64,000 nt of DNA from Marinifilum sp. D714. Its GTDB lineage: Bacteria; Bacteroidota; Bacteroidia; Bacteroidales; Marinifilaceae. Made by a program: the position numbers and the translations under genes. The stretch covers positions 1-64,000 of the forward strand of contig NZ_JALPNU010000010.1 of assembly GCF_030851345.1 (NCBI RefSeq), given 5' to 3'. Shown one piece after another: positions 11,504 to 14,053 of this stretch (position 1 is its first letter; each line of letters starts with the position of its first letter). The notes under the pieces are model-generated. The model was not told the origin of the DNA and ran no database searches. It saw only the letters and a list, made by a program, of their open reading frames with translations.

Positions 11504-11670
11504 AAAATTAAAAATTTTAGTTAATAGTTAATGTTGTCTGTAATTTTTAAGGGGTAATTAGAAAAAAATAGTTGTTTTTTACTAAACACCCCCTCAACTA
11601 CACAATACAAAAATGATGAAAAAAAATAAATATCGCAAGACTACCTGGAAATTGAAAGGGGTATATCACA

Positions 11671-11714
11671 AAAAAAACCGATAAAAATCACAGTAGAACC
11701 CCTGATTTTTATCG
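11671..11714 (-). terminator. Terminator of the kinase-like/phosphatase pair
   Basis: A perfect 12-bp stem (cgataaaaatca / tgatttttatcg) with a 12-base loop is followed on the minus strand by an eight-base T run. It lies 44 bases after the CotH-like gene. Confidence 0.85.
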
Positions 11715-11757
11715 ATTGCGCAAATATTTTTAACTTTTTATAGAAAAAGTCTAATTT

Positions 11758-12852
11758 TTATCGAGTCTTAGGAATTTTTGGAGAATTTTTCTCTATTACC
11801 TCTCGAACATCTCTTTTGGAATTAATTAACCTATAAAATTCTTCTATGTATCCTATTAATTTATTTCGATTTTCATCTTTTAGATAAGTACAACTGCTAA
11901 TAACTTCTAAGAAAGAAGGTTTTAATTCCTTAAAGTTCTCAAAAGCTTGTGCCAGTTCTTCTGAATTCCACCTCATACCTTTATATAAGCGTTTGTATTT
12001 TGCGTCTGGTTCGATTTTAGGTGAAAGAGTATAATACGAATGATTAATTATCCCAGACCAATCAAAATCAAATGGTACTACAACTGGAATACTATGCTCG
12101 CTAACAGATAAAACATCTATATTATGCAATCGGCCAACATCCCAATCGGCATTGCCTATCATTAATTGAAATAAAGAAAGCATTACCATATTTTCTCTCA
12201 ATATCTCATATTGCTTCATGTTCTTGAAGTTCAAAATATTCTTTCCATTTCTTAATGCAACATCCTCCTTGTCTTCAAGAAAAAAGCCAAACTTTGTTAT
12301 TGTATCTGAGGAGTTTACATCTATAAATGCAACTTGAGATAATCGAACACGATAACTGTGATTCGAAATCAAATTATACATCTTATATATAAGATATTCC
12401 TCAATGGTATGCTGCTCATAGTCGTCAACAAAAGACTGGCAATGACTCACATATTTTAATTTTGATTGCCCCTCAAACTCCGTTCCCTTAGCTTCTTTAA
12501 CGGGTATTTTAAACCGTAAAGGGGGAAAATTACAATTTTGTTTTCTACGACGAAAATTACCTCTGGTTTTTACTTTTACCTCAAATACATCTGCCTTTCC
12601 ATTCTCTGATAGCACCTTTAATTCACTTTTATGATATTTCCTCTTTTCTGCAATATCATTTATTAATAATGCTAAATCAGTTTTTAATTCAATCTTTAAA
12701 AGATCTTCATTCTTAAACAATGGTAAATTTAACAGACTATCTCTATCCTTTGCTGTTATTGGATTTGCACTAAGAATATTTCCTGAACAAACCAATAACA
12801 TTAATAGTAAAACAAGATTTCGCCCTTTTCTTATTACGCCCCCATTATCCAT
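11758..12852 (-). CDS. Exported CotH-like atypical kinase-fold protein
   Basis: Hypothetical exported protein of about 364 aa. I place the start at 12852 (MDNGGVIRKG) because it yields a signal peptide (VLLLMLLVCSGNILSA) and lies 13 bases after the upstream stop; the longer 12924 start would overlap that gene. The layout resembles the CotH family of atypical protein kinases: KTRGNFRRR near the N-terminus, EEYLIYKMYNLISNHSYRVR, then an N-x-D motif followed by H-N (IGNADWDVGRLHNID) and a D-x-D motif (VVPFDFDWSG), which would match catalytic-loop and metal-binding segments. This assignment is by motif inspection and is not certain. It follows a secreted phosphatase gene in an apparent two-gene operon. 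Confidence 0.6.
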   Translation of the reverse strand: MDNGGVIRKGRNLVLLLMLLVCSGNILSANPITAKDRDSLLNLPLFKNEDLLKIELKTDLALLINDIAEKRKYHKSELKVLSENGKADVFEVKVKTRGNFRRRKQNCNFPPLRFKIPVKEAKGTEFEGQSKLKYVSHCQSFVDDYEQHTIEEYLIYKMYNLISNHSYRVRLSQVAFIDVNSSDTITKFGFFLEDKEDVALRNGKNILNFKNMKQYEILRENMVMLSLFQLMIGNADWDVGRLHNIDVLSVSEHSIPVVVPFDFDWSGIINHSYYTLSPKIEPDAKYKRLYKGMRWNSEELAQAFENFKELKPSFLEVISSCTYLKDENRNKLIGYIEEFYRLINSKRDVREVIEKNSPKIPKTR

Positions 12853-12865
12853 TTTATAGTAATAT

Positions 12866-14053
12866 TTATTCAATACTTTCTTTTTTCCCATCAATAAATA
12901 TGCGATAGTATTTATCATCTTCAAATAGTAATACCTGTGATTTTATTTCATCATAACCCATTGGGACATTCATTGCAACCAATCTTCCATCTTTTAAAAA
13001 TCTAATCGTTTCTACTTCGGTATGACCAAAGAATATTCTTTTTACCTTATAATAATTTAATACCCTATCCAATTCTTCATCTGTAATTATAGAATAATTA
13101 CGTGTTTTCATTAAATACCCCCTATACCACAGCGGGTTGCCAGGAAAATAAACTTCTTTCATCAATTCAGCCTGCGTTTTTCCATGATCCGGCTTTAAAC
13201 TCATTCTTATTTCTTCATTAATTTGAGTTAAAGACATCTCTTTTTCAATCATTTCAGGCGAAATTCCACCATGAACAAAAAGTAGATCATTAATTTTCAC
13301 AGCAGAATTAAGAGACCTTAACCATTTCCCCAATTCTGTATCCTCCTTAAAAAAACGCGGATAATTTATCATTAAACGTTTGCTCATTTTTTTATACTTC
13401 GGAGCTATATATCGGGCATCATTCATCAATACCATAATTTCGTGATTCCCCAATAAGTAATGCAATCTACCCTTATTTGATTTTGCTTGTTGTTGCAATT
13501 TCTTAATTAAATAAAGACTTTCGGTAACCTTATCACCTCTATCAAAAATATCACCAATGAACACCACATGTCCATCACCCCACAACCAATTCAATTCTTC
13601 ATCAATAACTTTTGCTCCCTGTAATAGTTTAATCAAAGTATCATATTCTCCATGAACATCTCCAACTACCAATATTTTTTCCACATTTTCAAATTCATCC
13701 CTCTGTACAGGATAATTCCCTCTTCTGAGCCAATATCTATTTTTATCACCTTTAAGACCTTTTACCTGTACTGAATCAGACTTTACTTTTAACCTCTTCT
13801 CTCTAATACTAATACTATTCTCTTCATGCGAGTGATCAACATACCACATTCTTACCTCTTTTGAGTCGATCCACGAAAAATGAGGTCCGTCTGAATAGTC
13901 TGGCAAGTTTATGTCATCAATATTTCCTCTAAAAACTTTATCGTATTTAGAAAATGCACCAGAACTTAATTTCTTTTTTTGCGCACTAAGTGGAAACAAA
14001 ACACAAATGCCCAATAAAACCAATAAGAATTTTACATATTGACATGAATTCAT
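12866..14053 (-). CDS. Exported PPP/Shewanella-like metallophosphatase
   Basis: Calcineurin-like phosphoesterase with all PPP-type metal motifs: VVGDVHGEYD, FIGDIFDRGD, LLGNHEIMV, a later VHGG and FGHTEVE. The DARYIAPKY stretch after GNHE is like the Shewanella-like protein phosphatases. A cleavable signal peptide (MNSCQYVKFLLVLLGICVLF, ending in SAQ) sends it to the periplasm or outside. At 395 aa it is slightly longer than plain PPP enzymes because of an N-terminal extension of about 100 residues. It is the first gene of a pair with the CotH-like kinase-fold protein, suggesting opposing phosphorylation and dephosphorylation of an exported target. The substrate is unknown. Confidence 0.82.
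   Translation of the reverse strand: MNSCQYVKFLLVLLGICVLFPLSAQKKKLSSGAFSKYDKVFRGNIDDINLPDYSDGPHFSWIDSKEVRMWYVDHSHEENSISIREKRLKVKSDSVQVKGLKGDKNRYWLRRGNYPVQRDEFENVEKILVVGDVHGEYDTLIKLLQGAKVIDEELNWLWGDGHVVFIGDIFDRGDKVTESLYLIKKLQQQAKSNKGRLHYLLGNHEIMVLMNDARYIAPKYKKMSKRLMINYPRFFKEDTELGKWLRSLNSAVKINDLLFVHGGISPEMIEKEMSLTQINEEIRMSLKPDHGKTQAELMKEVYFPGNPLWYRGYLMKTRNYSIITDEELDRVLNYYKVKRIFFGHTEVETIRFLKDGRLVAMNVPMGYDEIKSQVLLFEDDKYYRIFIDGKKESIE

Follow-up and report, generated by a model that had tools for sequence, protein, structure and literature searches.

Gene Organization of the Locus

The window, the whole stretch of 64,000 nucleotides that was analysed, was found to contain two open reading frames in the same direction on the minus strand, one at 12866–14053 followed by one at 11758–12852. 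The features of the locus were as follows.

12866–14053, minus strand: gene 1 of the pair, a probably exported Shelph-like PPP phosphatase of 395 amino acids (PF00149, similarity to 2z72/1v73, PPP motifs)
12853–12865, minus strand: intergenic gap of 13 bases (all 15 orthologous loci, L012-L026, have the phosphatase immediately upstream)
11758–12852, minus strand: gene 2 of the pair, a probably exported CotH-like atypical kinase of 364 amino acids (AlphaFold2 fold, conserved D236, N244 and D262)
12121–12153, minus strand: N234-x-D236 ... H243-N244 motif of the 364-aa protein (aligned with N-x-D ... H-N of CotH)
12061–12069, minus strand: D262-F-D264 motif of the 364-aa protein (aligned with the DxN/DxD position of CotH)
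about 11670–11716, minus strand: intrinsic-terminator-like hairpin with an 8-U tract, 3' of the gene pair (folding energy compared with shuffles)

The sequence-only reading had described two genes 13 bases apart that share a terminator; the spacing was confirmed, and a terminator-like hairpin was located. The hairpin had a folding energy of −21.1 kcal/mol (z −5.8), and none of 200 shuffles was equally stable; it was absent from the list of the stock terminator scan. The promoter scans stayed at chance level. The kinase and the phosphatase are probably translated from one message. The 364 amino acids were counted from an ATG; on mechanical grounds the same open reading frame could also start at a TTG at 12924. 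The pair is preceded upstream by what we take to be a SusC/SusD-like pair and followed downstream, in the same direction, by a gene that is presumably glutamine-synthetase-like. The closest named relatives of the 364-aa protein were found in four Marinifilum genomes, with 88–90% identity, which marks the window as Marinifilum-like.

Sequence and Fold of the CotH-Like Protein

The 364-aa protein had no match in Pfam, NCBIfam or the PDB sequences, and it fell below detection at the curated cut-off of the Pfam CotH family (PF08757). No direct sequence link to solved kinases was found. The genome contained three kinase copies, the window copy and paralogues on contig 15 (39% identity) and contig 10 (35%), and the contig-10 paralogue scored above the Pfam CotH cut-off (32.5 vs. 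23.8 bits). Among 70 kinase relatives, 12 matched Pfam CotH at E 0.01 or better, and none matched a Fam20 family at E 0.01, nor did the 364-aa protein itself. Profile-profile comparison with CotH (hhalign) gave a weak match with a probability of 17% and E 0.0014 (10% for the C-lobe alone), and this alignment was used solely for the register of the motifs.

The AlphaFold2 model, built from the 70-sequence alignment, had a mean pLDDT of 89.0 and a pTM of 0.85. A comparison with CotH and Fam20-type kinases had been proposed, and in it CotH came out on top by a wide margin. The best solved matches in Foldseek were Bacillus cereus CotH (5jd9, E 8.8e-8), followed by Fam20C (4kqb, 5.0e-5) and HipT (5.0e-4). 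VIA-align gave Z 19.9 (5jd9) and 19.5 for CotH, then 12.9 for CtkA, 12.7 for HipT, about 12 for the lipid kinase PI4KII and about 11 for Fam20C. The model and 5jd9 aligned at 3.2 Å over 267 residues, with 15% identity in the structural alignment. The name CotH-like, rather than CotH, was chosen because the fold and the catalytic residues agree with CotH while the Pfam threshold was missed. The 364-aa protein is probably a CotH-like atypical kinase, and it may share the ability of CotH to phosphorylate protein Ser with ATP.

Conserved Residues of the CotH-Like Protein

The N-x-D / H-N and D-x-D motifs noticed in the sequence were located as N234-x-D236, H243-N244 and D262-F-D264. In the weak hhalign register, N234-x-D236, H243-N244 and D262 fell on the N-x-D, H-N and D of CotH, respectively. 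According to passages in PMC7821199, the Bacillus subtilis CotH variants D228Q and D251A are inactive, and a section of PMC12189002 states that CotH retains the equivalents of D166, N171 and D184 of PKA. In our reading, which matches residue to residue, D236, N244 and D262 would correspond in order to the catalytic Asp (D228), the Asn and the metal Asp (D251) of CotH.

D236, N244 and D262 were kept in all of the 70 aligned sequences; the invariance of motifs in this set is partly circular, as the two search patterns contained the EYLIYK and DFD motifs. A second set of 68 relatives was fetched by profile to escape that circularity, and there the three residues were present in all 67 sequences that have a residue at the position. 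In the same set C107 was found in 68/68, C138 in 67/67, D264 in 66/67, N234 in 64/67, R170 in 61 and F126 in 47 relatives, and because of such exceptions some invariants of the 70-sequence set do not hold. The 70-sequence alignment contained 17 invariant columns and no lysine among them, with K133 present in 67 of 70 sequences. The C107 and C138 residues would fit a disulfide. For the alignment A4, L084 was dropped with a stop inside its matched range, and L013, L014, L015, L017, L020, L026, L029, L032, L033 and L050 were left out against redundancy.

The Shelph-Like PPP Phosphatase

The 395-aa protein was described beforehand as having complete PPP motifs, and each was located: GDVHG at 131–135, GDIFDRG at 167–173, GNHE at 202–205, HGG at 261–263 and GHT at 343–345. 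It scored 71.2 bits against PF00149. Its residues 114–394 matched the cold-active tyrosine phosphatase of Shewanella (2z72) at E 9e-62, and the next PDB match was at 4.1e-5. Its AlphaFold2 model aligned with 1v73 at a TM of 0.89 by target length over 346 alignment columns. The parts of PMC535813 at hand name the Shelph group, describe the Shewanella enzyme as Tyr-specific and bacterial PPP members as of broad specificity or possibly Tyr-specific, and state that all bacterial-type PPPs conserve an (I/L/V)D(S/T)G motif; in PMC9769683, a Shelph of Toxoplasma is located to the endoplasmic reticulum. In place of (I/L/V)D(S/T)G, the 395-aa protein reads MNVPMG, and the Shewanella prototype reads VDSS at the aligned position. 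The label Shelph-like was used because the PPP signature is present and the Shewanella enzyme is closest, but the (I/L/V)D(S/T)G motif is missing; closeness here refers to PDB sequence and fold matches. From its sequence, the 395-aa protein is best described as a probably exported Shelph-like PPP phosphatase with predicted catalysis.

N-terminal ankyrin repeats were found in three of four distant phosphatases scanned. An identity as Ap4A hydrolase was rejected, the NCBIfam model giving 52 bits against a cut-off of 176. An anti-phage origin was likewise rejected: in PADLOC the kinase had no match and the phosphatase a single marginal one, to an orphan methyltransferase (E 0.013). So was a phage origin, with one weak PHROGs match for the kinase, to an 'acetyltransferase' family (E 0.0016), and eight for the phosphatase, mostly to generic phosphoesterase families.

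Probable Export of the Two Proteins

The best 10-residue Kyte-Doolittle means at the N-termini of the two proteins were 3.6 and 3.4. A strong N-terminal hydrophobic stretch, called by a hydrophobicity heuristic on mechanically chosen starts, was present in 58 of 76 open reading frames for the kinase, in 27 of 32 for the phosphatase and in 147 of 477 others. Where signal peptides had been assigned to both proteins, a signal-peptide-like hydrophobic stretch was found, which may be a cleavable signal. Both proteins are probably exported, since their N-termini are hydrophobic, and the conserved cysteine pair of the kinase fits such a location.

Conservation of the Pair Within the GTDB Family

In the GTDB family of the window, the kinase was found in 24 of 56 genomes (59 matches) and the phosphatase in 35 of 56 (68 matches). 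All 24 kinase genomes also contained the phosphatase (Fisher p 1.1e-7), and 11 of the 56 genomes contained the phosphatase without the kinase. The phosphatase was located upstream on the same strand for 45 of the 59 kinase matches, directly for 22 and with one gene in between for 23. The intervening gene matched the DUF4956 profile in 23/23 cases and was confirmed by Pfam in the window genome. Among the 80 loci fetched, all 15 orthologous loci (L012-L026) had the phosphatase directly upstream, and 12 of them had a gene of 729–750 aa downstream of the pair. Of the other 14 kinase matches, ten lay beside another metallophosphoesterase, two (G038:C351 and G031:C302) began at a contig end, and two (L130 and L131) had neither phosphatase type upstream. 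In G038, a single kinase may account for two matches, a full gene and a fragment lying at different contig ends. The ten were paralogues directly 3' of a metallophosphoesterase of the 624-aa class (PF00149, another subfamily), on contig 10 and in L122-L129 and L231. Conversely, 23 of the 68 phosphatase matches had no adjacent kinase, and ten of these were inspected.

Trees were built for 57 adjacent pairs. In them, Marinifilaceae pairs of the direct type and of the DUF4956 type fell into the same two well supported clades for the kinase and for the phosphatase, the phosphatase tree being a quick one and the deeper branches weak in both. Because the clades agree, partners have apparently not been swapped since the two types split.

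Three further arrangements were observed. On contig 15 of the same genome (L009:5937-8897), a PPP phosphatase, a DUF4956 gene and a CotH-like kinase follow one another, the phosphatase being where some relatives have VTC, and a gene that we assume to be RNase HII-like comes after them. On contig 10 (L011:6035-9038), the third kinase paralogue overlaps the 624-aa metallophosphoesterase, and the same was seen in nine further genomes. A direct-pair phosphatase at G037:C19:72225-73388 has one in-frame TAA in the assembly, and its kinase partner has none.

Conservation of the Pair Beyond the Family

At the order level, 295 genomes contained the kinase in 44, the phosphatase in 38 and both in 31 cases (Fisher 5e-25). 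Relatedness was handled by counting families only, and of 119 families (the highest family number encountered) the kinase was present in 25, the phosphatase in 21 and the two together in 18 (p 6e-13). The phosphatase was within 1.5 kb of 24 of the 69 non-own kinase matches, against about 0.08 expected for genomes of 4 Mb; the short fragment G281:C194, one of the 69, was not fetched. The copy numbers are lower bounds, as at most 5 or 7 candidates were scored per genome. Adjacency was seen in 12 families besides that of the window, and the order varied, with the phosphatase before or after the kinase, in the same or the reverse orientation, or flanked by two kinase genes.

The pair is thus more than a chance neighbourhood because its adjacency is conserved elsewhere, and chance was ruled out by the 45 of 59 matches in the family together with the order-level excess. 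Two findings could have overturned the sequence-only reading, a fold unrelated to kinases and a lack of co-occurrence; the model has a kinase fold and the genes co-occur, which supports that reading. The idea of a kinase-phosphatase couple held as far as conservation goes, but the couple is part of a larger gene family that also has DUF4956 and VTC as partners, and many members lack a recognised partner.

DUF4956, VTC, and Other Neighbours

Neighbours were counted within two called genes of the kinase with our own profiles, in the 80 loci and in a set of 60 order-level loci; the two sets overlap (e.g., L043/L171, L064/L172 and L087/L195, with identical proteins). The 80 loci comprised 32 with PPP (13 also with DUF4956), 11 with VTC (3 also with DUF4956), 20 with no PPP, VTC, DUF4956 or metallophosphoesterase, 11 likewise without any of these but truncated by an end, and 6 in which simple gene calling gave no kinase open reading frame. 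The 60 loci comprised 22 with PPP (4 with DUF4956 and VTC, 4 with DUF4956, 1 with VTC), 5 with DUF4956 alone, 20 with none and 13 with none but cut by an end. A recognised partner was therefore absent from 31 of the 80 (11 cut by a stretch or contig end) and 33 of the 60 loci (13 cut). VTC was near the kinase in 11/80 and 5/60 loci and DUF4956 in at least 16/80 and at least 13/60, the latter being lower bounds since the profile missed a Pfam-found DUF4956 beside the L084 kinase relative.

Pfam confirmed VTC in five upstream genes (L052, L066, L035, L036 and L082). The order VTC, DUF4956, CotH-like was present in Bacteroidota in L035, L036, L082, L180, L200, L212 and L218, and some relatives had clusters of VTC (polyphosphate polymerase), DUF4956, kinase and phosphatase. 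In the window genome no VTC match was found, and no DUF4956 gene lay beside the window pair. According to PMC7112168, Pel exopolysaccharide loci in streptococci and clostridia are bordered by genes for a CotH-like protein, a polyphosphate polymerase and DUF4956. Passages of PMC12345266 describe SIR_1594 of Streptococcus intermedius as CotH-like and predicted to be secreted, and report that mutants of SIR_1594 and of the membrane protein SIR_1592, which we infer to correspond to DUF4956, had changed Pel levels and reduced aggregation; by the authors' own account, they did not encounter the three-gene arrangement away from the Pel locus. Among five Pfam-annotated neighbours in four of our VTC-DUF4956-CotH-like loci, there was no Pel gene.

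Other neighbourhoods were also recorded. On contig 13 of the same genome (L010:4882-11349), a true CotH lies among a family-2 glycosyltransferase, a HEAT-repeat protein and a YaiO-type barrel, with the look of an exopolysaccharide locus. In L087:413-4767, L194 and L195, a DUF4956 gene is followed by kinase, PPP phosphatase and a second kinase; the kinases have diverged, and the L087 phosphatase has ankyrin repeats. In L084:1460-2551, a Gemmatimonadota record, DUF4956 directly precedes the kinase relative, so that the link may cross phyla. In L063:2518-3723, an HD-domain and Pycsar-effector-like (PycTM) protein was found upstream of the kinase relative.

Discussion

We propose, with a probability of about 0.6, that the two genes form a unit in which a PPP phosphatase would oppose an exported CotH-like kinase on substrates of the envelope. 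The 364-aa protein, probably exported and with a predicted CotH-like fold, would phosphorylate one or more periplasmic or surface proteins, and the co-exported Shelph-like phosphatase would strip those phosphates. The contig-15 unit of the same genome may work alike, coupled to the DUF4956 membrane protein. Opposition is argued mainly from the frequency with which a phosphatase neighbours the kinase, one branch having another phosphatase in that place. Against the proposal stand the missing Pfam match of the 364-aa protein and its weak profile match to CotH, the many loci with no recognised partner, the phosphatase matches and phosphatase genomes that lack a kinase, the broad specificity possible in bacterial PPP enzymes, and a call of export made by a hydrophobicity heuristic. 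The mechanism is weakest where it needs a phosphoryl donor outside the cytoplasm. To our knowledge, ATP is not normally available in the periplasm. Polyphosphate is a candidate donor because of the VTC and DUF4956 neighbours, but the window genome has no VTC match.

The substrate may instead be a glycan or lipid of the envelope, phosphorylated by the CotH-like enzyme and trimmed by the phosphatase, so that the unit would tune an exopolysaccharide or surface polymer. We consider this possible but unlikely. Lipid kinases share the fold, as the Z value of PI4KII shows, and the true CotH of the same genome sits with a glycosyltransferase and a YaiO barrel; the gene company at Pel loci (PMC7112168, in part) and the mutant phenotypes of SIR_1594 and SIR_1592 (PMC12345266, in part) also agree with it. 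However, CotH, the closest fold, phosphorylates proteins according to passages of PMC7821199, the Shewanella relative of the phosphatase is Tyr-specific in the account of PMC535813 at hand, and no polysaccharide synthesis gene recurred among the Pfam-annotated neighbours, which were a minority of the neighbours.

The VTC and DUF4956 counts, and the different metallophosphoesterase beside ten kinase paralogues, would also suit a housekeeping role, in which phosphate release falls to the phosphatases and the handling of polyphosphate or nucleotides to the CotH-like protein. We regard such a role as rather improbable, since the window genome has no VTC match and the window pair no DUF4956 neighbour, and the consulted parts of PMC535813 and PMC9769683 treat Shelph-type enzymes as protein phosphatases.

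Some atypical kinase-fold proteins are known to do other chemistry. The CotH-like protein might accordingly bind a nucleotide and carry out another transfer (e.g., of AMP), or be a pseudokinase that only binds; the lack of a lysine in the invariant columns, despite the frequent K133, fits such a role. Conservation of the Asp-Asn-Asp set and the recurrence of a phosphatase as partner make this very unlikely. That the linkage is an inherited gene order with no functional meaning is hardly credible: other Marinifilaceae neighbours are kept too, such as the gene downstream of the pair, but the association persists in the 12 further families despite differing order, strand and intervening genes.

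The proposal of an opposed kinase and phosphatase can be extended to a modular signalling cassette of the Bacteroidota envelope. VTC and DUF4956 might provide a phosphoryl donor or carry it over the inner membrane. The exported CotH-like kinase might phosphorylate envelope proteins from polyphosphate or some other donor than ATP, and the PPP phosphatase, which in some cases bears ankyrin repeats, might reverse the reaction. This extension is speculative, and we would bet against it; if true, it would explain how a kinase acts where ATP is absent.

Exported kinases are a familiar feature of the eukaryotic secretory pathway, and CotH-like proteins predicted to be secreted have been described in bacteria. 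The open-licence literature searched yielded no account of a bacterial exported kinase matched with an exported phosphatase, or of a CotH-like/PPP pair. If the opposed kinase and phosphatase are real, the locus would be a genetically simple system of reversible phosphorylation outside the cytoplasm; it would raise the question of the phosphate donor there and give a functional hint for the co-travelling DUF4956, VTC and CotH-like genes. The conserved pairing makes extracytoplasmic reversible phosphorylation a testable idea.

Among known systems, the CotH spore-coat kinases (PF08757; B. cereus 5jd9/5jda and B. subtilis) resemble the 364-aa protein in fold (Z 19.9), in the motif order RGN/KGE ... 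NxD ... HN ... D-x-D/N and in the Asp-Asn-Asp positions. The 364-aa protein differs from them in its 15% structural identity, below Pfam detection, and in its place beside a PPP phosphatase, and its group in having two near-invariant cysteines. Fam20C (4kqb) is a kinase of an exported compartment, as the 364-aa protein would be, and has a similar fold (Foldseek E 5e-5, Z about 11), whereas the 364-aa protein has no Fam20 family match by sequence and is clearly more distant from it than from CotH. The Shelphs of Shewanella (2z72/1v73) share with the 395-aa protein the sequence match at E 9e-62, the whole-length fold (TM 0.89) and the PPP motifs; the 395-aa protein differs in the coupling of its gene to a kinase-like gene and in MNVPMG at the (I/L/V)D(S/T)G position. 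The accessory genes of Gram-positive Pel loci belong to the same partner families as those of the Bacteroidota loci (CotH-like, polyphosphate polymerase and DUF4956), whereas in the Bacteroidota a PPP phosphatase is added or is found where VTC stands, and the CotH-like protein belongs to a distant group.
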